Of a stretch of DNA of 52,307 nt, positions 5,976 to 39,979 are shown piece after piece. This DNA comes from a virus. Every line of letters begins with the position of its first letter. Position 1 is the first letter of the stretch. The notes beneath the pieces are model-generated. The model made no database searches, was not told the DNA's origin, and saw only the letters and a program-made list of their open reading frames with translations. A program made the translations under genes and the position numbers. The stretch is taken from positions 1-52,307 of the IMG/VR virus record IMGVR_UViG_3300034980_000365. One strand, given 5' to 3'.

Positions 5976-6294
5976 TTTGATAATACTTACTTTTCAAACC
6001 TGCGCCTTTGGTTGCATCTCCCTGCATTGAAGCAGCCTGCGTCATGCTGACCGCACCATGTTTCTCATTCTTTATCATGAAATCATCGGTGGTCGTTGGT
6101 TTTTCTTGTTGTTCTTCTTCTTCTTCTTTTTTTTGCTCCCTTTTGATCTTCTTCTGATATCTATCAATGACGGCTTCCGGAATTCCCAACTCTATCGCTA
6201 AACTTTTTGCCTCTGTGTCTAAATGGTTATCTATATAGAATTTTTCCAATTTAGTCATTCTATATCTTGTATTCGCTGCTTTTTTCTTAGCCAT
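5953..6294 (-). CDS. Unknown small protein with charged coiled coil
   Basis: 113 residues. Residues about 10-50 look like a helix-turn-helix-type helical pair (YRMTKLEKFYIDNH, SLAIELGIPEAVIDRY), reminiscent of a DNA-binding head. A Lys/Glu-rich stretch (KKIKREQKKEEEEEQQEK) follows, probably a coiled coil or a disordered linker. The role is unknown; a DNA-binding or adaptor function is only a guess from the helical pair. Confidence 0.55.
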   Translation of the reverse strand: MAKKKAANTRYRMTKLEKFYIDNHLDTEAKSLAIELGIPEAVIDRYQKKIKREQKKEEEEEQQEKPTTTDDFMIKNEKHGAVSMTQAASMQGDATKGAGLKSKYYQNAIKKIR

Positions 6295-24786: not shown

Positions 24787-25044
24787 CTATTCAAAATAGT
24801 TGGCGGGTTTTCTTCCATTTTTAATAAAAGTTTGAGCAACTTTTTCTTTTTCGGTTAGTTTTTGTTCACTGTACTCCTTTGTAGTTTTGTTATAATTCAT
24901 ATGATAAAGCCAACAGTCATAATCAGATCCAGATAGATCTCTACCAGTCAGCGGGTCTTTGGCTAGTTCCCACCGTCTGGTGTACAACTCAATCCTTTTT
25001 TCTTTTTCAGCGAGATACTGTTCCGCAGGAGTTAAATTTTCCAT
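24787..25044 (-). CDS. Unknown small protein
   Basis: 85 residues from ATG 25044, which has AAAGGAA in the right place; the longer reading from 25083 nearly reaches the tRNA. Charged and helical (TPAEQYLAEKEKRIELYTRR), with WLYHMNYNKTTKEY. It lies 43 bases downstream of tRNA-Ile and is probably on the same transcript. Function unknown. Confidence 0.5.
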   Translation of the reverse strand: MENLTPAEQYLAEKEKRIELYTRRWELAKDPLTGRDLSGSDYDCWLYHMNYNKTTKEYSEQKLTEKEKVAQTFIKNGRKPANYFE

Positions 25045-25086
25045 AATTTTTTCCTTTATGAGGACCGGGTCTCCGGAATGCAATCA

Positions 25087-25159
25087 TCCGGCAGGTGGGA
25101 ATCGAACCCACGACCAGCACTTTATAAGAATGCGACTCTAACCACTGAGCTACTGCCGG
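25087..25159 (-). tRNA. tRNA-Ile (anticodon UAU)
   Basis: A cloverleaf folds on the minus strand: acceptor CCGGCAG/CTGCCGG (7 pairs), D stem GCTC/GAGT, anticodon stem GCATT/AGTGC around loop CTTATAA, T stem GTGGG/CCCAC around TTCGATT, discriminator A. The anticodon is TAT (25126-25124), which reads AUA. CCA is not encoded. It follows a consensus promoter about 90 bases upstream. Confidence 0.92.
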
Positions 25160-25244
25160 TGACAGCGGTTGGCATCCTAATTACCCATCGCCTTTTATCC
25201 TAGATAAACGAACTCTTAGGATGAGCAGTACAGTCTCCGAACAT

Positions 25245-25273
25245 ACTGTAACATATTATTCTGCGGATGTCAA
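25245..25273 (-). promoter_or_regulatory. Sigma70-type promoter for tRNA-Ile
   Basis: On the minus strand TTGACA (25273-25268), 17-base spacer, TACAGT (25250-25245). It fires toward the tRNA and the genes below it. The leader between contains a small inverted repeat ATCCTA/TAGGAT (25197-25202 and 25217-25222), possibly a processing site. The -35 sits inside the 3' end of the nuclease-like gene. It is the best bacterial-type promoter I found on the minus arm. Confidence 0.7.
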
Positions 25274-25813
25274 GACCAATTTCTGAATATTTTCCAATTC
25301 ATTTTTTTTCACAATGTAATTTACTGGTCCAGATTTTCCGGTTCTACTATTTTTTATTGGGTCGCTTGGCTTACGATTTTTTAATGTGGCTTTATCGACC
25401 CATCCCCACACACGAACTGTTCTTTTTGTGTCATAGCTACAGCAGATAAAGATATCAGACTTCTCTAATTTGTCTTTGTCTTTTTTTGAGCCGCAGGGGA
25501 CTTTGAGCCAAGGGTTATATTGTGCCGCAGGATGAGTGGCAACTTTAATGTCTGCCTTCATACCCATAATGATCACATCATATCCTTCATCGCCGTGATC
25601 GCTGTATATGGTTTCATCTAGCGGAATATCAAGATATTTACATATTGCAACTTCACCAGCTAAACCGTAAAAATGAGATTGTTCTGAACTATCAGTAAGT
25701 TTCCCATGTCTACCGCTACCAAATTTTGATTTCTTTGCATCTCTAGCTTTTGCTAAAGATTCTACTTTTCTTATATCTGTACTACTCAGTATTATTTCTG
25801 TAAATTTATGCAT
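25256..25813 (-). CDS. PD-(D/E)XK nuclease-like protein
   Basis: 185 residues. Active-site pattern of the restriction-endonuclease fold: YGLAGEVAICKYL (E54 on the first helix), GDEGYDV (D79) and ADIKVATHP (D88-x-K90). Later strands are IFICCSYD and VRVWGWV. The N-terminus is basic (KARDAKKSKFGSGRHGK). It probably cuts or processes DNA, as related phage proteins are annotated, but the substrate is unknown. Confidence 0.65.
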   Translation of the reverse strand: MHKFTEIILSSTDIRKVESLAKARDAKKSKFGSGRHGKLTDSSEQSHFYGLAGEVAICKYLDIPLDETIYSDHGDEGYDVIIMGMKADIKVATHPAAQYNPWLKVPCGSKKDKDKLEKSDIFICCSYDTKRTVRVWGWVDKATLKNRKPSDPIKNSRTGKSGPVNYIVKKNELENIQKLVLTSAE

Positions 25814-25889
25814 GATAAATAATCATTCCTATACAGAGTAAAATAAAACTAAACACCATAACTGTTTCTAGCTTTTCCTGAAAATTCAT
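25806..25889 (-). CDS. Tiny single-TM protein (27 residues)
   Basis: ATG 25889 (overlapping the upstream stop as ATGA) to TAA at 25806, which overlaps the nuclease start by 8 bases. Reads MNFQEKLETV followed by a hydrophobic run MVFSFILLCIGMIIYHA. ATGA coupling at both ends supports translation despite the size. Function unknown. Confidence 0.4.
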   Translation of the reverse strand: MNFQEKLETVMVFSFILLCIGMIIYHA

Positions 25890-26044
25890 TTAATGTCTAA
25901 AACCTTTCTAATATTTATCAAATCCTGACCATGTAATTTTTTAAGGTGGTTATATATTTTTTCACCTTCTTTTAATTTTATAATAGCCTTCTTATGTTTG
26001 ATGTTTTTATTTTCCCAAATAAAATATGAAACTGTGTAAGTCAT
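25886..26044 (-). CDS. Unknown 52-residue basic protein
   Basis: ATG 26044 lies within one of the repeated junctions, with GGAG as ribosome site, and TGA is at 25886. Basic and helical (ENKNIKHKKAIIKLKEGEKI). It is the last gene reached through the cassette array. No family recognised. Confidence 0.45.
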   Translation of the reverse strand: MTYTVSYFIWENKNIKHKKAIIKLKEGEKIYNHLKKLHGQDLINIRKVLDIK

Positions 26045-26232
26045 TTATCAACTCCTTCAATCTCTATTTTATAAAGACCTTTTATCAAGTCCATATGCTT
26101 GCCTTCACGAATAAACCATTCTTCTGTGAGGTCTACAATGACCTCTGAAAGATCGTCAGCATAAAAAGGATGACCGGCGAACCAAGCTAGGCAATCTGCT
26201 GCTTTGTTTGAAATTTTAATTTTCTTACTCAT
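26041..26232 (-). CDS. Cassette-array small protein ending GVDK
   Basis: 63 residues (SNKAADCLAWFAGHPFYADD) ending IEGVDK, with the final codons overlapping the next gene's ribosome site and start. No family recognised. It starts in another junction at 26229. Its body shows no likeness to the YopX or MSSDE-type neighbours, so the array carries unrelated inserts. Confidence 0.55.
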   Translation of the reverse strand: MSKKIKISNKAADCLAWFAGHPFYADDLSEVIVDLTEEWFIREGKHMDLIKGLYKIEIEGVDK

Positions 26233-26420
26233 TTATCAACTCCTAAAAAATTTCTACCTGCTGTAGACCAATTTTCTATTCCCATGCAAATAACCTCGCC
26301 ACCGACCTGAATACCAATTATTCCGTCTTTGGTTACATGTATTGAGGGCGAATAAAAGTCTTCGTTGTCCTGCCTCCAAAGTTCTATATCACTATTGGCT
26401 TTAGGTTCGTCAGAACTCAT
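26229..26420 (-). CDS. Cassette-array small protein ending GVDK
   Basis: 63 residues. The start MSSDEPKAN is shared with two nearby paralogs (MSSEELKEN, MNSDELKEN), while the remainder (SIHVTKDGIIGIQVGGEVIC) is unrelated. It ends FLGVDK, encoded by a junction copy. Looks like a recombinant of a shared 5' end and a new body. Function unknown. Confidence 0.55.
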   Translation of the reverse strand: MSSDEPKANSDIELWRQDNEDFYSPSIHVTKDGIIGIQVGGEVICMGIENWSTAGRNFLGVDK

Positions 26421-26893
26421 TTATCAACTCCTTCAAAGATATTACCCACCACTTCGTAGTGATACCAGTTTGGATCATGCAGGTTTGTTATCTCATAAGG
26501 TTCCATAATGTCTCCCTCTTTTAGATTAACATCATCTCCTGTGCTTTCAAGATAAAACCCCGGATATTTGTAAGTCCCGCCATCAAATTCTCCAGTGCCA
26601 TATTTTACAACAGCATGTACGATGTAGTCTTCCATGCTATCTTTTGGAAACGAGAGAATATCCCCCTCATAAATCTCAACACCGTTCTTGTCTTTGAGTC
26701 CAGTGTATTGCATTTTCTTAAATTGTCTACGGCAACCGTAAGAATCTTCAATTAAACTTATTTCAAGACTACCATCCCCGTAATGGATAATCTCTGACTG
26801 CTCAAACCATAGTCCCGCCAAGTCTGCTAACTCTTTGGGTGAATACATCTTCTTTTCTTTTTCATCCCATCCCCGAAATTTAATATTTCTCAC
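26417..26893 (-). CDS. YopX-family protein (copy 1)
   Basis: 158 residues. YopX pattern: opening RNIKFRGWDEKEKKMYSP, middle MQYTGLKDKNGVEIYEGDIL, closing YEVVGNIFEGVDK. YopX proteins are common in phages; the role is unknown. The start is GTG, in a diverged junction at 26890. It is one of three copies here, with an insert of about 30 residues that the others lack. Confidence 0.8.
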   Translation of the reverse strand: MRNIKFRGWDEKEKKMYSPKELADLAGLWFEQSEIIHYGDGSLEISLIEDSYGCRRQFKKMQYTGLKDKNGVEIYEGDILSFPKDSMEDYIVHAVVKYGTGEFDGGTYKYPGFYLESTGDDVNLKEGDIMEPYEITNLHDPNWYHYEVVGNIFEGVDK

Positions 26894-26928
26894 TTGTTAA
26901 CTCCTAAGAAAAGTCAAGTTTAACAGTT

Positions 26929-27150
26929 TCAATGGTTTCCTTTTTCGTCACCATTGTGAATTGTGGAGTGTCCGTCAATATTCACATACCACATAATTTC
27001 ATCTTCTGTTAGATACATATCAATCGCTAAATGCTGAAACAGATATTTCCGATTTCCCAAATTCACTTCACCAATATACTGGAATCTACCTTTAATGAAT
27101 GGGGTCTTTACAAGATAGAATGTGTTCTCTTTTAGTTCTTCAGAACTCAT
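26929..27150 (-). CDS. Small cassette protein, paralog of 27912-28154
   Basis: 73 residues: MSSEELKENTFYLVKTPFIKG..RFQYIGEV..KYLFQHLAIDMYLTEDE. Residues 1-50 match the 27912-28154 product closely, with a different C-terminus. No recognised family. It starts in the junction at 27147. The 35 bases below its stop contain an out-of-use junction-like remnant. Confidence 0.6.
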   Translation of the reverse strand: MSSEELKENTFYLVKTPFIKGRFQYIGEVNLGNRKYLFQHLAIDMYLTEDEIMWYVNIDGHSTIHNGDEKGNH

Positions 27151-27512
27151 TTATCAACTCCTTCAAAGATATTACCGATTACTTCGTAATCGCTATTGGG
27201 GTTCATGGTTTCTGGATCAAAATTAAATCTAAAGCCACAAGCGTTTCCCCAGTAAAAATCTTGATCAATGTCGTCATCCCAACTCACAATCGCTGTAGAG
27301 AATCCAGACCTGACAATATCACCCTCATAAATCTCAACATCATTCTTGTCTTTAAGTCCGGTGTATTGCTGACGTTGCCAAAAGTATTTTGGAGGAATGG
27401 TGGCATAAAATTCATTTCGCATTACGGAACATAGGACTTCTTTGTCTTTAGTAATATCTTCCCAGTTCCACATGTTTGAACCATCCCATGCCCTAAACTT
27501 AATCTCTCTCAT
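27147..27512 (-). CDS. YopX-family protein (copy 2)
   Basis: 121 residues: MREIKFRAWDGSNMWNWEDI, QQYTGLKDKNDVEIYEGDIV, closing YEVIGNIFEGVDK. Start and stop both lie in exact junction copies (27509 and 27147). Copy 2 is the most canonical YopX N-terminus of the three. Confidence 0.82.
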   Translation of the reverse strand: MREIKFRAWDGSNMWNWEDITKDKEVLCSVMRNEFYATIPPKYFWQRQQYTGLKDKNDVEIYEGDIVRSGFSTAIVSWDDDIDQDFYWGNACGFRFNFDPETMNPNSDYEVIGNIFEGVDK

Positions 27513-27901
27513 TTATCAACTCCTTCAAAGATGTTCCCTATAATCTTAGCAGTAGAAAGCGATTTTCGTGTCATCAGCCATTTAACATTGTGTTCGGGCT
27601 GTACAAAATGATAGCCGTTTTCAACCCACTGAATCTCTCCATTCATTTCGGGGTACATCCATCCCTGTTCCCATAGAAGGATATCCCCCTCATAAATCTC
27701 CACCCCGTTCTTATCTTTAAGTCCAGTGTATTGCATTTTCTTAAATTGTCTACGAACACCATAAGAATCTTCAATCAGACTTATTTCCAGGCTTCCGTCT
27801 TCTGCCTGTTCAAACCATAGTCCCGGCAAGTCCGCCAATTCAACGGGAGGATACATCTTTTTCTCTTTTTCGTCCCATCCTCTAAACTTAATCTCTCTCA
27901 T
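27509..27901 (-). CDS. YopX-family protein (copy 3)
   Basis: 130 residues, very like copy 1 (REIKFRGWDEKEKKMYPP; MQYTGLKDKNGVEIYEGDIL; IIGNIFEGVDK) but without copy 1's insert. The nucleotide likeness to copy 1 is high through the middle (near 26690-26735 and 27710-27760), so the duplication is recent. Confidence 0.82.
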   Translation of the reverse strand: MREIKFRGWDEKEKKMYPPVELADLPGLWFEQAEDGSLEISLIEDSYGVRRQFKKMQYTGLKDKNGVEIYEGDILLWEQGWMYPEMNGEIQWVENGYHFVQPEHNVKWLMTRKSLSTAKIIGNIFEGVDK

Positions 27902-27911
27902 TTATCAACTC

Positions 27912-28154
27912 CTAATATCCCATATCTAAATCTTGTGCTTGTTTTGTAAGTTCATCAAGTGCTTTTTCTCGTTTATCAACTCCTACACAAGCTACTAATT
28001 CGTTTTCTGTTAAATATAGATCAGTGGCGAAACATTGAAAAAGATATTTCTTGACGCCCTGAAAATCTACTTGCCCAGTGTATTGGAATCTTCCTTTTAT
28101 GTAATTGGTCTCAATACTATACCAGATGTTTTCTTTTAGTTCGTCAGAATTCAT
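27912..28154 (-). CDS. Small cassette protein with a stop-loss extension
   Basis: 80 residues. Residues 1-56 resemble the 26929-27150 product (NSDELKENIWYSIETN, RFQYTGQV, KYLFQCFATDLYLTENE). Then GVDK is followed by 19 further residues (REKALDELTKQAQDLDMGY). A junction copy at 27969-27983 has a T-to-C change (minus strand ATGA to ACGA) that removes both the stop and the overlapping start. The extended frame ends at a TAG in the next junction. Confidence 0.65.
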   Translation of the reverse strand: MNSDELKENIWYSIETNYIKGRFQYTGQVDFQGVKKYLFQCFATDLYLTENELVACVGVDKREKALDELTKQAQDLDMGY

Positions 28155-28157
28155 TTA

Positions 28158-28817
28158 TCAACTCCTTAACTTTTCACAATATAGAATTTGCGCAATTTTC
28201 ATTTCTTCTTCTGTGTCTATATCAATATACGGACCTTTAGCAAGCCACATGGTTGAGTTAGGTGAATAAGTATAGTGATATTTACTATAGACTGCTGGAG
28301 TAGAAACCCCCATTGGGGTGACGTAGTAACACTTGGGTAAGTCCTGTGACGGCACATGCCAACTTCCCGGCCCAAAATTCATCCCCTGCATATTTTCATC
28401 TACCAAGTAATCAGCAAATTCATATACGGGGACCACTGATTCATACTGCCCTAATTTTTCTTCCGCAAAAGATAAAAAATCTTGGATGTCGTTGTACAAC
28501 CAAAAGAGTGGTGTAATACACTGCCATAAGCAAATAGGCTCATCAGGTCCAAAAGACCTAATTAAACTTTCAGATAAATCAATTACTACCTCACTCCAAT
28601 TATTTGAAGTATTATTGAGAGGTATATGATTTACGCCGTACCTTTTTATTAATTGATCAGTTTGCGTACCATCAACACAAACTAGACTTACGTGATGACC
28701 GTGTTTTAGAAAGTTTTCAACCGTTATGTCCAGTAGAGATTTACCATCAAAGAATTCCCTGACGTTCTTTTTGTGGCATCTGGAGGAATCAAATTTAAAC
28801 GGTATTATTACCTTCAT
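28158..28817 (-). CDS. CMP-sialic-acid-synthetase-like cytidylyltransferase
   Basis: 219 residues. The N-terminus VIIPFKFDSSRCHKKNVREF followed by DGKSLLDITVENFL matches the NTP-binding start of NeuA/KdsB-type enzymes, which activate sialic or related acids as CMP-sugars. Late PYIDIDTEEEMKIAQ is the family's metal-site and closing helix. It overlaps the GT29-like gene by 23 bases, so product and user are co-translated. Sialic acid itself, Kdo or a related nonulosonate are all possible substrates. No sialic acid synthase (NeuB) is in the window. Confidence 0.75.
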   Translation of the reverse strand: MKVIIPFKFDSSRCHKKNVREFFDGKSLLDITVENFLKHGHHVSLVCVDGTQTDQLIKRYGVNHIPLNNTSNNWSEVVIDLSESLIRSFGPDEPICLWQCITPLFWLYNDIQDFLSFAEEKLGQYESVVPVYEFADYLVDENMQGMNFGPGSWHVPSQDLPKCYYVTPMGVSTPAVYSKYHYTYSPNSTMWLAKGPYIDIDTEEEMKIAQILYCEKLRS

Positions 28818-29502
28818 CTAATTCCAGTATATTTATTTTATTTTGTTTGTGAAGTTTATTTAACCAAATTATATCTGTGTTAATCTCATGAGGTAATGCC
28901 ACTAGCTTTTTTTCTTTATTAGTATCCCAATAATGATAAAATTCTTCTTGCATACCATTTGACGGATGCCCAAATCCGGCTATATTGACTCTACCATAAA
29001 ACTTTCTGTAATAATCTACAACTAATGATCCATTTGTGGGAACCGTACTGAAGCCTCTTTTTTTCCATTTTTTCATACCATTAAACGAATCAATAAAATG
29101 AATTATGATACTATCATCAATAAATGGACTAATGTCTCTATAAAAGCGATGAAAGTCATAATTCAAACCAAGGAAAAGTTTAGACTTTGATAATACAACT
29201 GCGCCCTGACCTTCTTCGTTTCTTAATCTTTCAAAACAATCTTTTTTTACAATTGATTTATCTAAAGTTTTACGGTTTTCTATTTTCTTATCACAAATAG
29301 CACATACGCTGCTTCTTATAACCCATCCAGCAATCTGCCAATTTGCTATGAAAGAATGGGTTACTCTTGAACCTACATCTTTTTCAAATCCAGAAATCTG
29401 GGGCTGATTGATTCTTACAATTATATCGTGACTGTCTATCTTTTCCCCAAGACCTTTACCTGTGAGACTGTCAGCACTTCCCACAATACAGATCCTGCTC
29501 AT
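28795..29502 (-). CDS. GT29 sialyltransferase-like protein
   Basis: 235 residues. Sialyl motif L is clear at residues 4-50 (CIVGSADSL, KIDSHDIIVRIN, FEKDVGSRVTH). Motif S is VPTNGSLVVD ending in GRVNIAGFG. Motif III is FYHYWD. Motif VS reads HEINTD, i.e. H-x4-D rather than H-x4-E. It uses CMP-activated sugar, supplied by the neighbouring gene. No membrane anchor or signal is visible, unlike Golgi sialyltransferases, so it should act in the cytoplasm. Beyond these motifs the sequence is diverged. Confidence 0.8.
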   Translation of the reverse strand: MSRICIVGSADSLTGKGLGEKIDSHDIIVRINQPQISGFEKDVGSRVTHSFIANWQIAGWVIRSSVCAICDKKIENRKTLDKSIVKKDCFERLRNEEGQGAVVLSKSKLFLGLNYDFHRFYRDISPFIDDSIIIHFIDSFNGMKKWKKRGFSTVPTNGSLVVDYYRKFYGRVNIAGFGHPSNGMQEEFYHYWDTNKEKKLVALPHEINTDIIWLNKLHKQNKINILELDEGNNTV

Positions 29503-29505
29503 TTG

Positions 29506-29700
29506 TCAATTCCTACCAAGAAACTTTTTCTTAATAAACCAAAATAGTGTTCTAAAGATATTTCTGTATCTTACTTTACCGTCTTTTTCAACAAGACCAA
29601 AATGATCTAGAGAACAGTCTTCACATAAATATTCTTTGCAGATACGACACCGATAACTATCTTCATATGTTATCTGCTTACCACATTCACATTCTACCAC
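29506..29700 (-). CDS. Small zinc-finger-like protein
   Basis: 64 residues with Cys pairs ECEC, CRIC and CEDC plus a His, i.e. a RING/B-box-like zinc pattern in the first 35 residues. A hydrophobic, basic C-terminus follows (FRTLFWFIKKKFLG), perhaps membrane-associated. Function unknown. Confidence 0.5.
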   Translation of the reverse strand: MVECECGKQITYEDSYRCRICKEYLCEDCSLDHFGLVEKDGKVRYRNIFRTLFWFIKKKFLGRN

Positions 29701-29709
29701 ATAATACCC

Positions 29710-29904
29710 CTAAAATAACCCCGGTTGGTCTCTGGGTGCATACAACGTATTCAACATCAAAATAGACTGTTTAACAGAATCATTATCTGTTACATTTGCA
29801 ACTTCTTCCACCAACTCGGAGAACATTTCTTTAGCATCTTCTGGGCTGATGTAGGAGTTAACAATATCTTTGATAATTCGCGCTTCGCTATTTGTAATTG
29901 GCAT
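29710..29904 (-). CDS. Unknown small acidic protein
   Basis: 64 residues, helical (SEARIIKDIVNSYISPEDAK). No family recognised. It sits 9 bases upstream of the zinc-finger-like gene, on the same transcript. Confidence 0.5.
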   Translation of the reverse strand: MPITNSEARIIKDIVNSYISPEDAKEMFSELVEEVANVTDNDSVKQSILMLNTLYAPRDQPGLF

Positions 29905-29906
29905 TT

Positions 29907-30116
29907 TTATTTTCCATAATACTTACCAAGAATTTCGATACGATCTTCCGCATCTACGAGAGTATCTAAAGCTTCGTCTAAATTCTTATGGAAATCACCA
30001 GTAGAATGATCTCCGATACCTACGGCATTTTCAGTTAAAAGCTTCAGTGACATTAAAGCCTTGTCTCTATCTGATAAAGCTTTATTTCTTAAATAAGCCA
30101 GTGCTAATTCTTTCAT
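29907..30116 (-). CDS. Unknown small helical protein
   Basis: 69 residues, helical (ALAYLRNKALSDRDKALMSL, DEALDTLVDAEDRIEILGKY). No family recognised. It overlaps the first minus-arm gene by 4 bases. Confidence 0.5.
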   Translation of the reverse strand: MKELALAYLRNKALSDRDKALMSLKLLTENAVGIGDHSTGDFHKNLDEALDTLVDAEDRIEILGKYYGK

Positions 30117-30307
30117 AAATAAACCTTTGCCTCGTCGAGTGATAATTCATGTAAAGTAGGAATGCTATGCCCGTCGTCAAATTCGCGCATAGCGTCGTCT
30201 GCCATTTCCTTGTTAGTAAAAACTCCTACAATTCCATCAAAGCCAAAACTGTCGTTGATCAAATACACGACCCAAGCAATTTTCTTTTTTTTGAAATTCA
30301 TACTCAA
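30113..30307 (-). CDS. First gene of the minus arm, unknown small protein
   Basis: 64 residues (NFKKKKIAWVVYLINDSFGF, EMADDAMREFDDGHSIP). It resembles small stress- or host-interaction proteins only in composition; no family is recognised. It follows the divergent promoter directly, so it should be expressed early. The start is ATG 30307 or an in-frame ATG two codons later. Confidence 0.5.
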   Translation of the reverse strand: MSMNFKKKKIAWVVYLINDSFGFDGIVGVFTNKEMADDAMREFDDGHSIPTLHELSLDEAKVYL

Positions 30308-30358
30308 TCCTTTTTCAGAATTCGTGTTGACAAGAGGGTCAGAGCGTGGTAGCCTATC

Positions 30359-30431
30359 ACATTATATCGGAAGATTCAAGGGAATTTTCCAGAAATTCTG
30401 GGATTTTTCCAAAATTCTTCGGATATAATGT
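30359..30431. promoter_or_regulatory. Palindromic bidirectional promoter
   Basis: Arms ACATTATATCGGAAGA (30359-30374) and TCTTCGGATATAATGT (30416-30431) are near-perfect inverted repeats about a shared centre at 30395. Each supplies an outward TATAAT -10 box (minus 30366-30361, plus 30424-30429). A perfect 13-base palindrome CCAGAAATTCTGG (30389-30401) sits exactly at the centre. No consensus -35 is seen at 16-18 bases on either side, which suggests an activator or phage-specific factor at the central palindrome. It separates the two gene arms. Confidence 0.75.
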
Positions 30432-30435
30432 ACTG

Positions 30436-30641
30436 TCGGCTAACTGGTCGGCACGAGAAGAAGTCAGTTTGCTTCTCGCTAAAATACTGGCCTGAGATAT
30501 TGTGCCACCAAAGACGCTGATAGAGGTCAGGGACCAGGCGGAATATTAAGCTAAAGAACCTGAGACGGTAATTGTACCCCTTTTTAGGGTTGGGAGTAGT
30601 CCCGGAAATTATATTGCCAAACTGACAACTACATTTTTTTT
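30436..30641 (+). ncRNA. Predicted structured non-coding RNA with loop-3' pseudoknot
   Basis: Runs from just after the plus -10 box to a T8 tract (30634-30641), with no convincing ORF. Helices that pair by eye: CGAGAAG/CTTCTCG (30454-30460/30472-30478); CTGGTC/GACCAG (30444-30449/30532-30537); CCTGA/TCAGG (30491-30495/30527-30531); GGTAAT/ATTGCC (30567-30572/30613-30618); ACCC/GGGT (30576-30579/30587-30590) and GGGA/TCCC (30592-30595/30600-30603). The first hairpin's loop GTCAGTTTG (30463-30471) is perfectly complementary to CAAACTGAC (30618-30626). Some helices (such as GGCAC/GTGCC) conflict, so the fold is approximate. I do not recognise the family. Confidence 0.5.
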
Positions 30642-30733
30642 ATTTAATAGCGCTGGATATGCCTCTGACGCTAAATTTACAGTAAAGTATTGGTTTTGTA
30701 AGTCTTTGATAGATCAACACTTTAATATCTATT

Positions 30734-30755
30734 GCAAGTCCCGTGAGGGATTTGC
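30734..30755 (+). promoter_or_regulatory. GNRA-loop hairpin in the leader of the first plus-strand gene
   Basis: GCAAGTCCC and GGGATTTGC pair (nine pairs with one G-U) around a GTGA tetraloop. It ends five bases before the AAGGG ribosome site of the gene at 30777. It could stabilise the transcript or regulate translation. The upstream stretch 30642-30733 holds a small AGCG/CGCT stem (30649-30672) and otherwise nothing clear. Confidence 0.5.
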
Positions 30756-30776
30756 TTATAAAGGGAAAATTAGTAT

Positions 30777-31130
30777 ATGTTCCCCGGAAAACCAAAGATA
30801 GTATACAAAACTTGGGGCCGCGAGATTTGGTATGCGAATAATCAGGACAAAGATTATTGCGGCAAAGTGTTAGAGATAAATTCCGGACAGAAACTCTCTA
30901 TGCACTTTCACCTTTTAAAAGATGAAATGTTTTACGTGTTAGAAGGTGATTGCGACGTTGTTACCATAGACACCGTGCAAGCTAAAGAGATATCCTGCCA
31001 CCTATCTCCCGGTGATAGCTACCATATTAAGCAGGGATTACCTTACCGGCTTATTGCTATTACGGACTGCAAAATACTAGAAGCCAGCACATTCCATAGA
31101 GATAGTGATAGCTATAGGGTTTATAGATAA
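30777..31130 (+). CDS. Cupin-domain protein (mannose-6-P isomerase type II-like)
   Basis: 117 residues, a single cupin: GREIWYANNQDKDYCGKVLE, SMHFHLLKDEMFYVLEG (metal-site H-x-H), then DSYHIKQGLPYRLIA. It corresponds to the isomerase half of ManC-type bifunctional enzymes, without the guanylyltransferase half, and could make mannose-6-P or a related sugar phosphate. It is the first gene after the ncRNA and leads the glycan island. Confidence 0.7.
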   Translation: MFPGKPKIVYKTWGREIWYANNQDKDYCGKVLEINSGQKLSMHFHLLKDEMFYVLEGDCDVVTIDTVQAKEISCHLSPGDSYHIKQGLPYRLIAITDCKILEASTFHRDSDSYRVYR

Positions 31131-32029
31131 TGGACTTTTCATTGATAGAGGATAACGAAATATCACTTGCCGGTGATAGTGGGAAAAGTTATACGTTCAC
31201 TTTTCGATCAGATATAAAGAAGTCTGACAAATTGCCAGTACTAATGCCGACAAAGGATCACCTTGCTTTATTAAAGCATAACCTTAAAATTTTGAAAAGT
31301 TCCGGAGTTATAGAAGACATACAATTAATTATTATAGACGATAGGTCAACAGAAGATATATGTGGATTTTGTTCTTCTAATAACCTGGGCTATATAAGAA
31401 TTGATAATGATTACGGTTTTAATTATTCCGTGAGTATGAACATCGGCGCTTGGTTTCTTTATAATCTTGGATTTCACACATGTATGTTTTTAAACAATGA
31501 TTGTTATATACACAATAGAGACTTCTTAAAAGAGTTTTTAAAAAGGCATTATGATACCGAGTCTGATTTGTCTGGGATTAAATTATTGTATCCTGAGTTT
31601 AGACTGGCTTTCCACAAAAAAATTAACAAACTTATGGGTAAAGTTCAATTTGGTGGTGGGGATTTTTTTGATCGCGCAACTTTAATGCAGCCACGGCATT
31701 ACGCAAGAGGGGCATTTTCTTCACATCCCTATGCCAATAGAGATAGTGATGAACTTTTCGTAACAGGTGCTTGTAATATTGTAGACTTAGAAACCTTTAT
31801 AGAGCATGGTGGTTATAATGAGAAAATGCCAGCCTCTTACCAAGATGTATGTTTATCTTTAGAGTACAGACGTAATAATAAAAAAATTTCATACTTTGGA
31901 AAAGATATTTTCTTCTATCATGAAGAGACTTTAAGTAGACGTGGTGAGAGTCAGCTTGAAAGATATTCGCTTTTAAATTATCAAAGAATGGTGAAGGAAC
32001 TAAATAGTGAAGATATCGGCATCGTATAA
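31130..32029 (+). CDS. GT2-type glycosyltransferase
   Basis: 299 residues with a GT-A fold: LPVLMPTKDH, QLIIIDDRST, FLNNDCYI near the donor site, then LFVTGACNIVDLETFIEHGG and YQDVCLSLEY, as in GT2 rhamnosyl- and galactosyltransferase-like proteins. It overlaps the cupin stop by one base and the next gene by 23. Confidence 0.75.
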   Translation: MDFSLIEDNEISLAGDSGKSYTFTFRSDIKKSDKLPVLMPTKDHLALLKHNLKILKSSGVIEDIQLIIIDDRSTEDICGFCSSNNLGYIRIDNDYGFNYSVSMNIGAWFLYNLGFHTCMFLNNDCYIHNRDFLKEFLKRHYDTESDLSGIKLLYPEFRLAFHKKINKLMGKVQFGGGDFFDRATLMQPRHYARGAFSSHPYANRDSDELFVTGACNIVDLETFIEHGGYNEKMPASYQDVCLSLEYRRNNKKISYFGKDIFFYHEETLSRRGESQLERYSLLNYQRMVKELNSEDIGIV

Positions 32030-32780
32030 TGTATTTGACGGAGAGGAACTTTTAGAAAAATCTATTTCTTCTATAAGAGATTCGGTTGACTTTATATCAG
32101 TTGTTTATCAAACTAAATCTAATTTTGGAAACAAATGCTCACCTGACCTAGAAGGTATTTTGTATGACTTGAGAGACAAAGGCGATGTGCAGGAATTAGT
32201 AAAATACATACCTAAACTCAATTTAAAACCACATAGTAATGAGTTGATAAAAAGAAATATAGGTTTAAATTTAGCAAAACAAAATTCATGCACGCACCAT
32301 ATGTCTTTAGATTGTGATGAGTTTTACATACATAAAGAATTTGAAAAAGCAAAACAAATCATATTAGATGAAGACATAGACTGCGCCATATGTGGTATTC
32401 AATCTTACTATAAAGAACCAACAATAATAATAGATCCACCAGACCCAACACTTGTTGCGATGATATATGAAATAAATAGTTATTCAGAATTTAAACTAAA
32501 TCAAGATCTTGGATATGATAAAATCGACCCCACAAGAAGAATAAAAAGTACGAAGGTCAAGAAATTTGAAAGAGAGGAGTTGTTGATGCATCACATGAGC
32601 TATATCAGAAAAGACATAAGATCAAAAGCTGAAAATTCTTCAGCAAGGTGTAATTTTGAAAATGAAATAGATATTTTTGTTGATTACTTTAATAACTATA
32701 AAGAAGGAGACGCGATGATCCTTGGATTACCGTGCTTATATTATAAAACTAAACAATCAAAAAATATATTCGGACTATAA
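32007..32780 (+). CDS. GT2/GT92-like glycosyltransferase
   Basis: 257 residues. SASYNVFDGEELLEKSISSI and SLDCDEFYIHKEF show a nucleotide-diphosphosugar transferase, the D-x-D-like DCDEF placing it near GT2/GT92 families. The start is GTG (32007), supported by AAGGA upstream. Acceptor unknown. Confidence 0.65.
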   Translation: MKISASYNVFDGEELLEKSISSIRDSVDFISVVYQTKSNFGNKCSPDLEGILYDLRDKGDVQELVKYIPKLNLKPHSNELIKRNIGLNLAKQNSCTHHMSLDCDEFYIHKEFEKAKQIILDEDIDCAICGIQSYYKEPTIIIDPPDPTLVAMIYEINSYSEFKLNQDLGYDKIDPTRRIKSTKVKKFEREELLMHHMSYIRKDIRSKAENSSARCNFENEIDIFVDYFNNYKEGDAMILGLPCLYYKTKQSKNIFGL

Positions 32781-32781
32781 C

Positions 32782-33669
32782 ATGAAAATACTGTTTATTT
32801 CAGATTTTTCTTTGGATCATTCGCCTGGAGGCGCGCAGAGAAGTAATGACATCATAGTAAAAACCGGGGTTGAATTAAAGCATGATGTTCATAGTATGTA
32901 TCATGATAGCAACTTAAAGATTATCGATCTAATAAAACTTATTGGGGATCATAAATATGATTATATCATTTCTTCAAATTTAGAATTGTTATCAAGACAA
33001 GAAGGACTTATCGATCTACTATATATGATGCCGAATCATATTAGGTTAGAACATGATATGAACCTATATCTAGACGATGAATCAAGGTTTAAACTATTTT
33101 CTAATTGCCATAAGACGTTTTTTCTTACAGAGTATCACCATCAAAAGTTTCGTGACTTCTACGGTGACTACTTTCAAAATGTGGAAATTGTGGCCGATCC
33201 TATTGACATCTCTGTTTTCTATGATTTCGGTAAATACAGAGAGGATGTTACTCTATACACTGGATTTATGCATAATTTTAAAGGCACAAATGTATTTATA
33301 AACCACGTAAAGGAAAACCCAGGTAAAAAGTTTATAGTCGCGGGGTGGGGTCCGGATCATTTGATGAACCAGATAAAAGATTTAGAGAATGTGGAATATC
33401 TTGGGAAGATAGAGTATGAACAAATGCCCGAAGTTTACAACAGGGCGTCCTCTGTCTTTTATAAGCCTAATATGTATGAACCCTTTTGTCGGTCAGTTGG
33501 TGAGGCTATTCTCTGCGGTGTTCCAAATCTAGTTGTGAATGATATTATTGGCTGTGTTCATGAAGAATCTAGATTAGGATTTGATGAATTTAAGAGTGCG
33601 TGTAATAATGCTGCCGATAACTTTTGGGGGATTATAGAAAATGATTTCAATAGTATGCACCTATCATAA
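32782..33669 (+). CDS. GT-B glycosyltransferase (GT4-like)
   Basis: 295 residues from ATG 32782, one base after the previous stop; the longer reading to 32722 overlaps the neighbour's coding frame. GT-B features are FISDFSLDHSPGGAQRSND, VTLYTGFMHNFKG, KFIVAGWGPD and the donor loop YEPFCRSVGEAILCGVPNLV. Gene order with its GT2 neighbours indicates stepwise assembly of one glycan. Confidence 0.75.
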   Translation: MKILFISDFSLDHSPGGAQRSNDIIVKTGVELKHDVHSMYHDSNLKIIDLIKLIGDHKYDYIISSNLELLSRQEGLIDLLYMMPNHIRLEHDMNLYLDDESRFKLFSNCHKTFFLTEYHHQKFRDFYGDYFQNVEIVADPIDISVFYDFGKYREDVTLYTGFMHNFKGTNVFINHVKENPGKKFIVAGWGPDHLMNQIKDLENVEYLGKIEYEQMPEVYNRASSVFYKPNMYEPFCRSVGEAILCGVPNLVVNDIIGCVHEESRLGFDEFKSACNNAADNFWGIIENDFNSMHLS

Positions 33670-34468
33670 TAGAAAAAGTCAGTTTATTACAACCCTCAAT
33701 ACTATTAAATTTCAGATAGAGAATAGTGATTTAGAAGATGTGGAAGTTATATGCGTAAATCACAATAGTAGTGAAGAAAATAATATAGATGATTTACAAA
33801 AAGACTTTAATTTTCTAAAAGTAATAAATTTAGATACAAATACTAAAAATCCATGTATACCATACAATGTTGGTTTTAGTAATGCTGTTGGTGATAAAAT
33901 CATAATTCAAAACGCTGAATGTTGTCATATCGGAAATATCATACAAAAAACTTCTGAACGCCTTAAGGAAGACAATTACTTATCATTTGCTTGTTTTTCT
34001 GCTGATCTTATGACATCAAATTTAATAAAATCTATAATAACATCTCGTAATGAAAGTTCAGTTGAGGTTATAAAAAATAAAGTCTACTCTTTACCCCAGA
34101 CAGGCCCAGGGTTTTTAAGTAACTCTTGGTATAACCACTCTAGATTTTCGCCCAGAAATTTGCATTTTACAACAGCCATAACAAAAAATAATTTAGACAA
34201 ACTTAAGGGCTTTGACGAGAGGTACGCTATTGGGATGGACTATGATGATGACGATTTCATCATGCGTGTTAATAGATTGAATCTAGAAATAGTCAATATA
34301 GACGATCCATTCTCTGTACATCTTCACCATTCCAGTTCGTATAATAATTTTATAATTGAGGGCAAAGCATATTCCCCGAATGACTTAAGAATTATAAACC
34401 TTCACGTATTTAATAAGGCGAAGGGTGAGTCATTAGTTACCGCTGAATGGAATCATTTCTATGGCTGA
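33641..34468 (+). CDS. GT2-type glycosyltransferase
   Basis: 275 residues: ISIVCTYHNR opening, a QNAEC in place of the usual D-x-D, and LKGFDERYAIGMDYDDDDFI as in GT2/GT7-type C-termini. It overlaps the previous gene by 29 bases. The loss of the first acidic D-x-D position is unusual, but the DYDDDDF block could bind metal. Confidence 0.7.
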   Translation: MISIVCTYHNRKSQFITTLNTIKFQIENSDLEDVEVICVNHNSSEENNIDDLQKDFNFLKVINLDTNTKNPCIPYNVGFSNAVGDKIIIQNAECCHIGNIIQKTSERLKEDNYLSFACFSADLMTSNLIKSIITSRNESSVEVIKNKVYSLPQTGPGFLSNSWYNHSRFSPRNLHFTTAITKNNLDKLKGFDERYAIGMDYDDDDFIMRVNRLNLEIVNIDDPFSVHLHHSSSYNNFIIEGKAYSPNDLRIINLHVFNKAKGESLVTAEWNHFYG

Positions 34469-35318
34469 TATACCTAAAAACTTTAATGTGTTCTGGGGTG
34501 GCGGAACATTATCTTTTATGAATCTTTTGACTGTTATAAGTTTTCATGAACATAATCCAGATTGGAAAATAAATCTTTTTAGACCAAAAGTATTAAAAAG
34601 TTTTTCATCAGTATTGTGGACAACCAAAGAACAGTCTCATAAGCTAGAATGTAAAGATTATTTTAATGAGTTAGTAAATTTAGATTTTGTGGATGAAATA
34701 GAATTAGACTATGATTTTTTAAGTTATAGTTATCATCATCCAGTAATAAAGTCAGACATGGCGCGGTATAAGATAATGAGTACATATGGAGGGCTATGGT
34801 CTGATTTTGATATAATTTATTTAAATTCAGTAGATAAACTAATAAAAACCAACGACAAATGTAATTTGTTTGTTAGTTATAGTTCTTGTCGGGAAAAATA
34901 TCACAGTATAGGATTCTATATAGCCACTAAGGATAACCCATTTTTTTTAAATTTAAGTGCCGCAGTAGAAACCTATAAAGACGCAAAGGCTACAGACTAC
35001 CAGTATTTTGGCAGATTGTTTGTTGAGAGCTTTTTTAGAAACTTTGAATCCTTAAGTTTACTCGAAGGCTGTATTGCATATAATTTAAGTAGTGATATAG
35101 TCTATCCAATCAAGTATAACGATTTGTCAAAAATTACAAGTGTAGATTACGAATTAGTAAAAGAAGATAGTTTAACCGAAGACACTGTAGGAATACATTG
35201 GTTTAATGGCGGCAATTCTGTTAGGCGAAAGATTGACGAGATAGATAAAGAATATAAATCAGATAAAACCTTAATGGGATATTGTTACAATAAGTATGAA
35301 GAATATATTAACAATTAG
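34461..35318 (+). CDS. GT32-type (capsular polysaccharide-like) glycosyltransferase
   Basis: 285 residues with the sugar-transferase DXD region: VIKSDMARYKIMSTYGGLWSDFDIIYL (split over residues about 95-120). S-D-x-x-R-Y...GG-x-W-x-D-x-D is the GT32/OCH1-like and capsular polysaccharide synthesis signature. Later GIHWFNGG is also typical. It overlaps the epimerase by 23 bases. Confidence 0.72.
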   Translation: MADIPKNFNVFWGGGTLSFMNLLTVISFHEHNPDWKINLFRPKVLKSFSSVLWTTKEQSHKLECKDYFNELVNLDFVDEIELDYDFLSYSYHHPVIKSDMARYKIMSTYGGLWSDFDIIYLNSVDKLIKTNDKCNLFVSYSSCREKYHSIGFYIATKDNPFFLNLSAAVETYKDAKATDYQYFGRLFVESFFRNFESLSLLEGCIAYNLSSDIVYPIKYNDLSKITSVDYELVKEDSLTEDTVGIHWFNGGNSVRRKIDEIDKEYKSDKTLMGYCYNKYEEYINN

Positions 35319-36372
35319 TGGAATTAGACCTGACTTCATAAGAATGTCGGAGGTCTTTCGTCGATTAGATGAATGCTCCAATATAGATCATCAATTGATA
35401 CATACGGGTCAGCATTTTGATAAGATGCTATCCGATATATTCTTTGACGAATTAGATATTAGATCTCCAGATTTTAATTTAGAGATAGGTGGTCCCGGCA
35501 AGGAGCATTTTCACCAAAACGCGGAGTTGACTGTCAAACTTATAGAGCTTATAAGAAAACAAAATCTAGATCCTGATTTAATTTTATTCTTGGGTGACTC
35601 TAATTCTGTTTTGGTTGCGCCATCCTTAGCCAAAGAAGGGTATAAGGTTGGTCATATTGAAGCTGGTATGAGATCATACGATAGGAGGATGCTAGAAGAA
35701 ATAAATAGGACGGTTTGTGATCATTCTAGCGAACTATTGTTTACATATCATGATGATTATACGGAGAATTTAGTTCGTGAAGGTATACCAAGACACAAGA
35801 TATATAATGTCGGGAACACAATAGTTGAAGTTGCAAATAAGTTTAAGGAAGATATTACCAAGATAGAGAAAAAAAGAGACCACATACTGCTGGATATTCA
35901 TAGACCTGAAAATTTTAAATGCCCAAAAAGACTACAGAGAATATTTGATATTGTAAACTATCTAAGTAGAAGTTATTCAATACCATGTATTTCTTTAAGG
36001 TTTCCACGAACTTATGATTTTATATCCAAATTTGGTATAAATACACACTCTATTGAACCAGTAGAGCTTATGTCATATAAAACATATCTACAGACAGTAT
36101 ATGATTGTAAGTTTATAATTTCTGACTCAGGAACCGCTCAAGAAGAACCCGCCTTATTTAAAATACCTGTTTTAGTTCCAAGAGATTTTACTGAAAGACC
36201 TTTATCATATCATACATTTTGTTCAAGGAAGCTGTGTTTGGATAGTGCTAGTATGTCTAATGATACAATTGATTATCTAGATACTGCGGAACAAAAAATG
36301 AACCCTAAATGGTTAGGGGTTGGTGATACATCGGACAAAATAATATCTATACTGGACAATAAACTTAAATGA
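35296..36372 (+). CDS. UDP-N-acetylglucosamine 2-epimerase
   Basis: 358 residues, full WecB-type enzyme: SGIRPDFIRM, FLGDSNSVL, GHIEAGMRSYD, LEEINRTV, DIHRPEN and SDSGTAQEEPALFKIPVLV followed by RDFTERP. Family members interconvert UDP-GlcNAc and UDP-ManNAc, or hydrolyse to ManNAc for sialic acid. Given the NeuA-like and GT29-like genes on the other arm, a sialic acid precursor role is possible. The classic GTRP/GDT motifs read GIRP/GDS here. Confidence 0.85.
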   Translation: MKNILTISGIRPDFIRMSEVFRRLDECSNIDHQLIHTGQHFDKMLSDIFFDELDIRSPDFNLEIGGPGKEHFHQNAELTVKLIELIRKQNLDPDLILFLGDSNSVLVAPSLAKEGYKVGHIEAGMRSYDRRMLEEINRTVCDHSSELLFTYHDDYTENLVREGIPRHKIYNVGNTIVEVANKFKEDITKIEKKRDHILLDIHRPENFKCPKRLQRIFDIVNYLSRSYSIPCISLRFPRTYDFISKFGINTHSIEPVELMSYKTYLQTVYDCKFIISDSGTAQEEPALFKIPVLVPRDFTERPLSYHTFCSRKLCLDSASMSNDTIDYLDTAEQKMNPKWLGVGDTSDKIISILDNKLK

Positions 36373-37130
36373 CTCAAAAATCTATTAAAATAGTAGTGCC
36401 TGTATATAATTGTGAAAAGTGGATTTCTAAAACCATAACCAGTATAAAATCGCAAACACATGAAGATTTTGAATGTTGCATTATAAACGACATGTCTACA
36501 GATAATACGGCAGATGTAATACAAGATTCTATTGATCTTGATAGAAGATTTAAATTTATAGATAATACAGAAAAGAAATATGCATTGAAAAATATATATG
36601 ATGGCATTAAATTTATAAGTAGTAATGACGAAGATATTTTAACAACGGTTGATGGTGATGATTGGTTGGCTCACGATCATGTTTTGGAAACTGTATATAA
36701 TGTCTACGAATCTACCAGTTGTTTGATAACATATGGCAATTTTTGTGAATATCCCTCTCAAAAAAAACACTTGGCATTCTCTACACCATATGATCAAGAT
36801 ATTATAGATAATAACACCTTCCGGAATACAGAATGGAAAGCTTCTCATTTGAGAACTTTTAAAAAGAAATTATGGGATAGAATAGATGTAGACGACCTTA
36901 TTAATCCAAAAACAAATGAATTTTATGAAGTGGCTTGGGACTTAGCTTTTATGTATCCCATGTTGGAAATGGCAGGTAATAGAAGTGAAAATATAAGTGA
37001 AGTTTTATACATATATAATAAAGAAAATCCTTTAAGTGATATGTACATAAAAACACAAGAACAAATTTCTATTGCCGATGATATAAGAAATAAAAATAAA
37101 TATTCAAAGGTAGATTTTGATGATAAGTAA
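36369..37130 (+). CDS. GT2-type glycosyltransferase
   Basis: 253 residues with a classic GT2 A-domain: KIVVPVYNCEKWISKTITSI, CCIINDMSTDNTADVI and TVDGDDWLAHDHVLE (the D-x-D). It overlaps the epimerase stop (ATGA) and the next gene by 14 bases. Confidence 0.82.
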   Translation: MTQKSIKIVVPVYNCEKWISKTITSIKSQTHEDFECCIINDMSTDNTADVIQDSIDLDRRFKFIDNTEKKYALKNIYDGIKFISSNDEDILTTVDGDDWLAHDHVLETVYNVYESTSCLITYGNFCEYPSQKKHLAFSTPYDQDIIDNNTFRNTEWKASHLRTFKKKLWDRIDVDDLINPKTNEFYEVAWDLAFMYPMLEMAGNRSENISEVLYIYNKENPLSDMYIKTQEQISIADDIRNKNKYSKVDFDDK

Positions 37131-38358
37131 ATTGTTTAAATGGAATAGATTTGATTTACCAGCCAAATATCTATATGCTAAATTTAGACAAAATAAGATT
37201 AATTCTGATTTTGGTTTAGAAATATATAAAGAACATTTGAAGTTATGGAACGGATTTAAGGAATTTGATAACCCAAATAAAAATACATTTGAAGCTTTTA
37301 AGTTGGATTTTGATAATTTAATTGATGATATTAATTCTTTTGGATTTGATGGTGATAAGTCTAAAATTGTAATAGATGAAGATGGTTATTTAGTGAATGG
37401 TGCGCATAGAACTGTAGCTTGTGTGGTTAATAATGAAGAGGGCGTATTTCAAGTGGGGGGCGTTGGTCAAAAAGTGTGTGATCATAATATGTTTAGAAAT
37501 ATGGGCCTATCAGAATTTTATATGGACGCTATGGCATATGAACTTTCTAAATTGAATACAAATATGTTTGTAGTTTCTATATTCCCCAGAGCAGTTGGTT
37601 CTGAAAATGAAGTTGAGAATATTTTGGATGACTGTGGTAATATAGCTTACAAGAAAATTGTTAAGTTAAATCCCAATGGGGCTTTTAATTTGATGAGGCA
37701 AATGTATTATGGTGAAGAATGGGCAGGTGAGGCACATAATAATTGGCCGGGACTTAGAAGTAAAGCTTCTCTTTGTTTTACTAATGATAACCCTCTGAAA
37801 GTTTATTTAGTTGAATTTGATAATGTTGATATAGCACAAGAAACAAAATTAAAAATTAGAGATATATTTAAAATACAAAATCATTCAGTACATATTAATG
37901 ATACACACGAAGAAACTATTAGATTAGCTAGAGTTTTATTAAATGATAATAGTATTCATTTTATGAATAATTCTGATTCACCCCCATATCAAAGTTTTCA
38001 AGAACAATTAAATTATTTTAAGAATTGGATTATACAAAATGGGTTAGATATTGAAGATTATTGTGTCTCTGCTAGTTCTATATTATCTATGTATGGTCTT
38101 AGAGAGGGTTATGATTTAGATTATCTTCATAATGGTTTAGTGATACAAGGTCATAATATGGTTCATAGCCATAATGAATATGGAATTGATAAATACCATA
38201 CGCATAGAGATGATATAATTTATAATCCGTCCAATCATTTTTATTATGATGATATTAAATTCGCATCATTAGATGTTGTCAAACAACTAAAACAAAAAAG
38301 AATGGAACAAAAAGATATTAAAGATATAAAATTAATTGATGGGGTAATTAATGTTTGA
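37117..38358 (+). CDS. ParB-like plus nucleotidyltransferase-like protein of unknown function
   Basis: 413 residues, apparently two domains. Residues about 60-110 contain IDEDGYLVNGAHRTVAC, like the ParB/sulfiredoxin-type nucleotide-binding pocket. Residues about 316-338 read CVSASSILSMYGLREGYDLDYL, an S-S-x(n)-D-x-D arrangement of the nucleotidyltransferase fold (D333, D335). The central part (190-260) is unassigned. The setting in the glycan island suggests a sugar or phosphate transfer role. I do not recognise the family. Confidence 0.55.
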   Translation: MMISKLFKWNRFDLPAKYLYAKFRQNKINSDFGLEIYKEHLKLWNGFKEFDNPNKNTFEAFKLDFDNLIDDINSFGFDGDKSKIVIDEDGYLVNGAHRTVACVVNNEEGVFQVGGVGQKVCDHNMFRNMGLSEFYMDAMAYELSKLNTNMFVVSIFPRAVGSENEVENILDDCGNIAYKKIVKLNPNGAFNLMRQMYYGEEWAGEAHNNWPGLRSKASLCFTNDNPLKVYLVEFDNVDIAQETKLKIRDIFKIQNHSVHINDTHEETIRLARVLLNDNSIHFMNNSDSPPYQSFQEQLNYFKNWIIQNGLDIEDYCVSASSILSMYGLREGYDLDYLHNGLVIQGHNMVHSHNEYGIDKYHTHRDDIIYNPSNHFYYDDIKFASLDVVKQLKQKRMEQKDIKDIKLIDGVINV

Positions 38359-39118
38359 TTTAAGTAAATATGTAACTATTTCTATGACGACTCACATATT
38401 ACCATCGACTGATATAATAGAGGAATGCATTGCATCTATTCGGGATAAATTTATAGGCATAGATGATTGTAAATTTGTAATTTATTGTGATAGTAGAATA
38501 GTTGACTCAACTAAAATATCATATGTAGAAAATTTAAATAAGTTAGAAAATGTAATAGTAGAAGACATATCTCACAGTGGTTTACAATCAAATTATATTA
38601 AAGGAATAGTTGATTCTTCTACACCTTTTGTATTTTGTTGTGAACACGATTGGATTTTTCTCAGAGAAATTGATTTATCTAAACTCATAAAAACTATGTT
38701 GGAGTATGATTTTATAAATTTTGTTAGATTTAATAAAAGAGATAATAAATATGCGCATATAAATAATCCCGAAGCAGGCGATACTTATTTTTGGGAAACT
38801 TATATAGAAGATGAACCCGATGTTAAAGAACAACAACTTATGAAAACTGATGCTATTGCTACCCACCCACATATAATAAGGGTTAGTAAATTTATGAATG
38901 ATTGGTTTGATATAGCAAGTAAACCAGGGCCGATGACTGGACAAGTAGAAGTCAATCTATATAATAGATATACAAGTATTATAAAACGAGATGGTTTTAC
39001 AAAAGCACAGAAAGATTGGGGTATCTACAATTATGGTGGTAGAAATGAAAAGAAAATAATAACACACTTAGATGGAAGTAATCATTATGTAGTAAATACA
39101 TTAGACAAGGAGTTATAA
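38351..39118 (+). CDS. Putative GT-A glycosyltransferase
   Basis: 255 residues. TISMTTHILPSTDIIEECIASI opens a GT2-like fold, and FVFCCEHDWIFL may serve as the donor-metal segment in place of D-x-D. It has a MTGQVEVNLYNRYT tail region. It ends one base before the dehydratase start. Assignment rests on fold-like features only. Confidence 0.5.
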   Translation: MFDLSKYVTISMTTHILPSTDIIEECIASIRDKFIGIDDCKFVIYCDSRIVDSTKISYVENLNKLENVIVEDISHSGLQSNYIKGIVDSSTPFVFCCEHDWIFLREIDLSKLIKTMLEYDFINFVRFNKRDNKYAHINNPEAGDTYFWETYIEDEPDVKEQQLMKTDAIATHPHIIRVSKFMNDWFDIASKPGPMTGQVEVNLYNRYTSIIKRDGFTKAQKDWGIYNYGGRNEKKIITHLDGSNHYVVNTLDKEL

Positions 39119-39979
39119 ATGATTAAAATAGAAAATGGTAAAAAATATTTAGTAACTGGTGGTAGTGGATTTTTAGGTGAAGAATTAATTAAAAGAATTA
39201 TATCAAAAGGTGGTGAAGTTGTTACTATCTCAAGAGATGAAGGAAAGTTAATTAAGTTAAAACAGAAATATCCATCTATTGAAATATTAACAGGTGGTAT
39301 ATGTGATGAGTTTGATGTTCATCAGTCTATGAGTGGAGTTACTGGAATATTTCATTTAGCAGCATTTAAGCATGTTGGATTAGCAGAAACTCAATCAAGA
39401 GAATGTACTAAATCAAATGTTATAGGTTCTATTAATATTTTAGAACAAGCTGTTAATAATAATGTAGAGTTTGTATTAGGTATAAGCACTGACAAAGCTG
39501 CTCAAGTAGCAGGTGTATATGGTGCCACTAAATACATTATGGAAAAATTATTTCAACAATTTGAAAGAAATTATCCAAATACAATATTCAGAATAGTTAG
39601 ATATGGTAATGTTTTATACTCAACAGGTTCTGTTTTATGTAAATGGAAAAAACTTCTTGAAGAGGGAAAAGAAGTTGTTGTTACTGAACCAGAAGCTACA
39701 AGATATTTTTGGACAATAGAACAAGCTGTTGATTTGATAGAGCAGTGCATGTCAGAAGCTACTGATTCATATCCATTTGTACCAGAAATGAAGTCGATGA
39801 GTGTTAGAGATTTATTAACAGCTATGTCTGAAAAATATTTGTTAGAAGGAGCCGAACTTAAAATAAAAGAAATCGGTTTACAACCAGGTGAGAATTTACA
39901 TGAAAAAATATTAGAAGCCGGTAAGTATTCAAACGAAGTTGAAAGATTTACAATAGAAGAAATTAAGGGGATGATTTAA
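39119..39979 (+). CDS. UDP-GlcNAc 4,6-dehydratase-like (PseB/CapD family)
   Basis: 286 residues, extended SDR: YLVTGGSGFLGEEL (NAD-binding), HLAAFKHVGLAE, GISTDKAAQVAGVYGATKYIMEKL (catalytic Tyr-Lys) and FRIVRYGNVLYSTGSVL. Polysaccharide-biosynthesis type dehydratase/epimerase acting on UDP-GlcNAc; the PseB type leads to pseudaminic acid. Product stereochemistry cannot be decided. Confidence 0.8.
   Translation: MIKIENGKKYLVTGGSGFLGEELIKRIISKGGEVVTISRDEGKLIKLKQKYPSIEILTGGICDEFDVHQSMSGVTGIFHLAAFKHVGLAETQSRECTKSNVIGSINILEQAVNNNVEFVLGISTDKAAQVAGVYGATKYIMEKLFQQFERNYPNTIFRIVRYGNVLYSTGSVLCKWKKLLEEGKEVVVTEPEATRYFWTIEQAVDLIEQCMSEATDSYPFVPEMKSMSVRDLLTAMSEKYLLEGAELKIKEIGLQPGENLHEKILEAGKYSNEVERFTIEEIKGMI

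Follow-up and report, generated by a model that had tools for sequence, protein, structure and literature searches.

Promoter-proximal antitermination elements are known from long phage operons and from long biosynthetic operons, and EAR, a structured cis RNA in Bacillus exopolysaccharide (eps) operons, confers processive antitermination. Structured non-coding RNAs such as GOLLD and ROOL are known from phage and metagenome DNA. To our knowledge, only few RNAs alter RNA polymerase elongation on their own, and few structured RNAs have been described from uncultivated phages. The put RNA of HK022 requires no dedicated protein factor, and its effect lasts for at least 10 kb (PMC9378689). LoaP makes use of hairpins in the leaders of long antibiotic operons (PMC12691694), and structures of GOLLD and ROOL have been reported (PMC12286853). 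In this study, we analysed a window of 52,307 bases, which is the whole virus record IMGVR_UViG_3300034980_000365. Here, a region next to a divergent promoter probably gives rise to a structured, conserved RNA of about 200 nt that makes up the 5' portion of the rightward transcript's leader.

The divergent control region and its surroundings

The main genes left of about 30.3 kb are encoded on the minus strand (DNA primase, DnaB helicase, a UvsX-like recombinase, ribonucleotide reductase and a sialyltransferase), and the genes right of 30,777 are encoded on the plus strand up to the end of the record. Both gene blocks are separated by a single divergent control region (Table 1). The sialyltransferase belongs to family 29 (28795-29502, minus strand) and is located beside a possible cytidylyltransferase (28158-28817) that scored below the Pfam cut-off. 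A 69-aa protein without assigned function (29907-30116, minus strand) was detected in 493 confirmed IMG/VR stretches, and cyanophages and pelagiphages gave weak matches.

The two divergent promoters nearly mirror each other about CCAGAAATTCTGG, both strands carrying TCTTC-S-GATATAATG, and no further copy of the full palindromic promoter element was seen in the window. In a related phage contig (G005, see below) the promoter stretch 30375-30416 including the palindrome centre is kept, and the leftward TATAAT is not. A sigma-70 scan gave no full promoter at the site of the rightward promoter; therefore, its assignment rests on the -10 box together with the conserved block upstream. The plus transcript is expected to begin near 30434. 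With the first gene at 30777, this predicts a leader of about 340 nt, of which the RNA feature comprises the first ~200 nt. A GGTAGC that resembles the RfaH ops core is located upstream of the promoter; it is not conserved and was dropped.

The rightward sugar operon is co-directional over at least 21.5 kb (window 30777-52307) and reaches the end of the window. It encodes GT2/GT10 and other glycosyltransferases, nucleotide-sugar epimerases, dehydratases, a DegT aminotransferase, methyltransferases and an acetyltransferase, and it resembles a complete surface-polysaccharide locus encoded by a phage. A further leader hairpin, CAAGUCCC-GUGA-GGGAUUUG (30735-30754), lies just 5' of the cupin ribosome-binding site and has a weaker counterpart in G005.

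Table 1. Features of the divergent control region, the predicted leader RNA and the first gene of the operon.
Feature	Position	Strand	Description and basis
Divergent promoter region, near-palindromic	30359-30431	none	36-nt arms, 75% complementary; TATAAT on both strands
Operator-like palindrome centre CCAGAAATTCTGG	30389-30401		appearance of the sequence
-10 box TATAAT of the rightward promoter	30424-30429	+	sequence; no matching -35 hexamer
P0, 5' hairpin UGUCGGCU/GGUCGGCA	30434-30453	+	folding; G005 has GCC-GCAA-GGC at the equivalent position
P1, 7-bp hairpin CGAGAAG/CUUCUCG	30454-30478	+	G005 has CCAGAUG/CGUCUGG, two pairs changed on both sides
P2, GGCCUGA/UCAGG-GA-CC	30489-30535	+	closes an invariant GAUA-UGUGCCAC loop; invariant in both phages
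Invariant unpaired linker AGCUAAAGAAC-UGAGACG	30549-30567	+	both phages
3' three-way junction	30567-30618	+	P4 30567-30572/30613-30618; P5 30579-30582/30586-30589; P6 30592-30595/30600-30603
Conserved U8 tract	30634-30641	+	kept in both phages; no terminator hairpin before it
Cupin gene, first of the rightward sugar operon	30777-31130	+	ribosome-binding site AAAGGG at 30760-30765

Conservation and predicted fold of the leader RNA

The neighbouring small protein (30113-30307), used as a query, led to a relative, contig IMGVR_UViG_3300014818_000074 (G005, also L023). It carries the same small minus-strand genes, a similar divergent region and an RNA-like stretch at about 5847-6067 that ends in T8 and lies between the same flanking genes, followed by the cupin gene and sugar genes. 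Both phages harbor a tRNA-Ile with the anticodon TAT (window 25087-25159 and L023:4053-4125, both minus strand), and a NeuB-like gene was assigned by eye in G005 (L023:8511-9341). All evidence from conservation and covariation comes from two members, the window phage and G005. The core is 77% identical (108/140), which is equal to or above the 66-74% DNA identity of the flanking genes. The blocks GGCCTGAGATAnTGTGCCAC, TCAGGGACCAnGCG, AGCTAAAGAACnTGAGACG and GGTTGGGAGnAGTCCCGnAAATTA and the T8 tract are conserved in both phages, and 3' of T8 no conservation of the leader was detectable against G005, with scores little above those of shuffled sequence. A 30-aa ATG frame at 30428-30520 has no counterpart in G005, and the window phage and G005 have no reading frame in common. 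Since there is no shared frame and the gaps in the core alignment include lengths 1 and 2, the RNA region is not coding, which bears out the earlier note, made from the sequence of the window, that it holds no convincing ORF.

The other elements named in that note are present as well: the hairpin CGAGAAG/CTTCTCG at 30454-30460/30472-30478, the loop segment GTCAGTTTG (30463-30471) with its exact complement CAAACTGAC (30618-30626), and the T8 tract. A hairpin of at least 6 bp whose loop has a 9-nt complement was found in 0/2000 dinucleotide shuffles, and any 9-nt complement in 4.9% of dinucleotide shuffles. The G+C content of the RNA region is raised (0.445 versus 0.345 in the window), and its overall folding energy is unremarkable (z -1.4 and -1.3 in two runs).

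P0 and P1 form tandem 5' hairpins of differing sequence in both phages, and the 5' domain of each phage folds better than about 97% of its own shuffles; P1, including its loop, was aligned by hand. P2 is uninformative on pairing because it is invariant. Within the linker of both phages, 7 bp could form between UAAAGAA and the conserved U8, possibly as a triplex or to sequester the U tract. After removal of a 10-N scaffold gap in G005, the three-way junction P4-P6 was predicted in each phage folded alone, with 10 pairs in common (null, 4/1000 redrawn sequences). In a MAFFT alignment, 42/42 cells of P2, P4, P5 and P6 were paired and three pairs were changed on both sides; sliding of the partners cut the pairing of these helices to 29-50%. 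An additional 4-bp helix, CAGG/CCTG (CAAG/CTTG in G005), has one compensatory change and clashes with the end of P2, and the minimum-energy fold of the whole window contains neither P1 nor P4.

As to covarying base pairs across related loci, which the earlier note named as a check, the three pairs changed on both sides speak for them, whereas a column-shuffle control reached 54/500. Because only two sequences are compared, covariation support for the helices is suggestive, not decisive. The proposal that a novel structured RNA is made from this promoter is supported by the syntenic homolog in G005, the non-coding conservation, the shared 3' domain with compensatory changes, the raised G+C content and the lack of an Rfam match (see below).

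The pairing between the P1 loop and the 3' end fared differently. In the window RNA, the 9-nt pairing is compatible with an H-type pseudoknot together with P1, or with a nested long-range helix in place of P1 and P4. The nested helix is favoured over the pseudoknot by energy folding (pair probability ~0.9), and two mutually exclusive folds compete, P1 and P4 versus the long-range 9-bp helix. In G005, the sole relative compared, the loop AGAACTGAATCG is not complementary to the 3' stretch TTAAACTAGTCC, and the 9-nt pairing is impossible both as a pseudoknot and as a nested helix. Therefore, the proposed loop-3' pseudoknot is not supported by this comparison with one relative. The 9-nt pairing may be lineage-specific, or a coincidence that was noticed because it was looked for.

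With Rfam (4227 families) the RNA region gave no match at the gathering score and no relevant match at E 10; at the gathering score the sole match in the window was a tRNA-Ile elsewhere. This agrees with the earlier statement that the RNA does not fit tRNA, tmRNA, RNase P, 6S or GOLLD RNAs, and ROOL, riboswitches and ribozymes were likewise unmatched. A likeness of CTGAGA...GAACCTGA to the thiamine riboswitch was dropped because Rfam gives no match. The RNA core was not found in other IMG/VR contigs by its exact pattern or in 79 records of related phages, and gave no credible match among 50,697 phage records; across all scans two members were found, the window phage and G005. The cupin gene is also present in L002, without the RNA.

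Ten IMG/VR stretches with GTCAGTTTG...CAAACTGAC...TTTT, three of which share a contig, resembled a repeated family and were dropped; on inspection these comprise GACA-rich repeats, coding-like stretches and apparent insertion-sequence ends, all of them unrelated inverted repeats. A 138-kb viral contig, IMGVR_UViG_3300036715_002161 (L006, L008, L013), contains a long GACA-rich repeat, itself with inverted repeats inside, in at least three nearly identical copies. Matches in L055 and L052 (E 0.8-1.5) possess AGCTAAAGAA and AGTCCCGGTAATTA, lack the 5' half and were judged to be due to chance. Further, 13 matches among genome contigs are about the number given by chance and look like coding DNA.

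Possible functions of the leader RNA

From the place and shape of the RNA we infer that it acts in cis. A cis-acting 5' leader is favoured because the RNA is located at the promoter and within the leader of a polysaccharide operon that spans at least 21.5 kb. By analogy with HK022 put, we tentatively suggest RNA-encoded processive antitermination as a possible mechanism. P0 and P1 would fold during promoter escape of the polymerase, followed by the 3' junction. The folded RNA, or a protein bound to it, would then modify the elongating polymerase, which could transcribe the sugar operon to its end without premature termination. Potentially, the conserved U8 gives a pause that permits folding or loading. 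A leader acting on polymerase processivity is favoured because the known antitermination elements (put, LoaP and EAR) serve long operons. No clear excess of terminators was detected inside the sugar operon, and therefore the target could be Rho or pausing.

Alternatively, the leader might be a cis-regulatory switch (a riboswitch, protein-binding leader or attenuator), in which a ligand or protein would be recognised by the invariant P2 loop and the AGCUAAAGAAC linker, and switching between two folds would control expression of the operon. Long invariant unpaired blocks amid variable helices are typical of binding sites, and the two exclusive folds of the window RNA would suit such a switch. 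However, the alternative 9-bp helix cannot form in G005, T8 offers no terminator for attenuation and no riboswitch of Rfam matched even at E 10, and we consider a switch rather unlikely.

The T8 tract also bears on the question whether the RNA is free. The earlier note suggested a discrete RNA ending here, and such a phage RNA would act in trans. The U8 is kept in both phages, the sequence conservation ends there, and in the window RNA the 9-bp pairing joins both ends. However, a consensus terminator scan did not recognise T8 as an intrinsic terminator, as no G+C-rich stem is located directly 5' of the U tract, and a scan found no second full promoter between T8 and the operon. Because T8 lacks a terminator hairpin and the same strand runs into the operon, a discrete RNA is not supported and a leader RNA fits better; a free trans-acting RNA is therefore unlikely.

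The region could also act as a DNA element, e.g., as an origin of replication or as a site for protein binding where the genes diverge, with the RNA structure being incidental. The GC skew flips its sign at this point and the adjoining promoter palindrome is conserved. However, the skew change tracks the change of gene direction, and the differences between both phages in P4 and P5 are partly made via G-U pairs, which are better suited to RNA, so that a DNA element appears quite improbable. A ribozyme, or a leader with no role beyond shielding the 5' end of the messenger, would agree with the compact fold and its invariant unpaired 5' blocks, but is very improbable, as no ribozyme of Rfam matched and the long invariant blocks exceed the needs of simple end protection.

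Comparison with known RNA systems

Among the described systems, HK022 put resembles the antitermination leader suggested here in being a phage leader RNA beside an early promoter, with tandem hairpins and a long downstream operon (PMC9378689). In contrast to the ~200-nt window RNA with its three-way junction, put comprises ~70 nt and two stem-loops. The two 5' hairpins and the position of the window RNA fit put, whereas most of the window RNA has no put counterpart. There is also no sequence likeness in the HK022 stretch that was compared (25000-40751, which may not include both put sites), where nhmmer with a two-member profile gave a best E of 14. LoaP likewise relies on a leader hairpin that serves antitermination on very long operons (PMC12691694). 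However, there a NusG paralogue binds to a single UNCG hairpin, and no hairpin with a UNCG loop was seen in the window RNA. GOLLD and ROOL are far larger than the window RNA and had no Rfam match in the window. EAR shares with the window RNA that a structured RNA is located on a long polysaccharide operon, but EAR lies inside the operon and occurs in Bacillota, whereas the window RNA is found at the front of the operon and does not match the Rfam model of EAR.

In the most far-reaching reading, the window RNA would represent a novel class of RNA-only transcription antiterminators, unrelated in sequence to put and EAR, at the promoter of a surface-polysaccharide operon of an uncultivated phage; this assignment is doubtful at present. 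A conserved leader RNA on a surface-sugar phage operon would connect the glycan genes of phages with a new element of control. In summary, the window RNA should be assigned to neither put nor EAR, but it may work like them.
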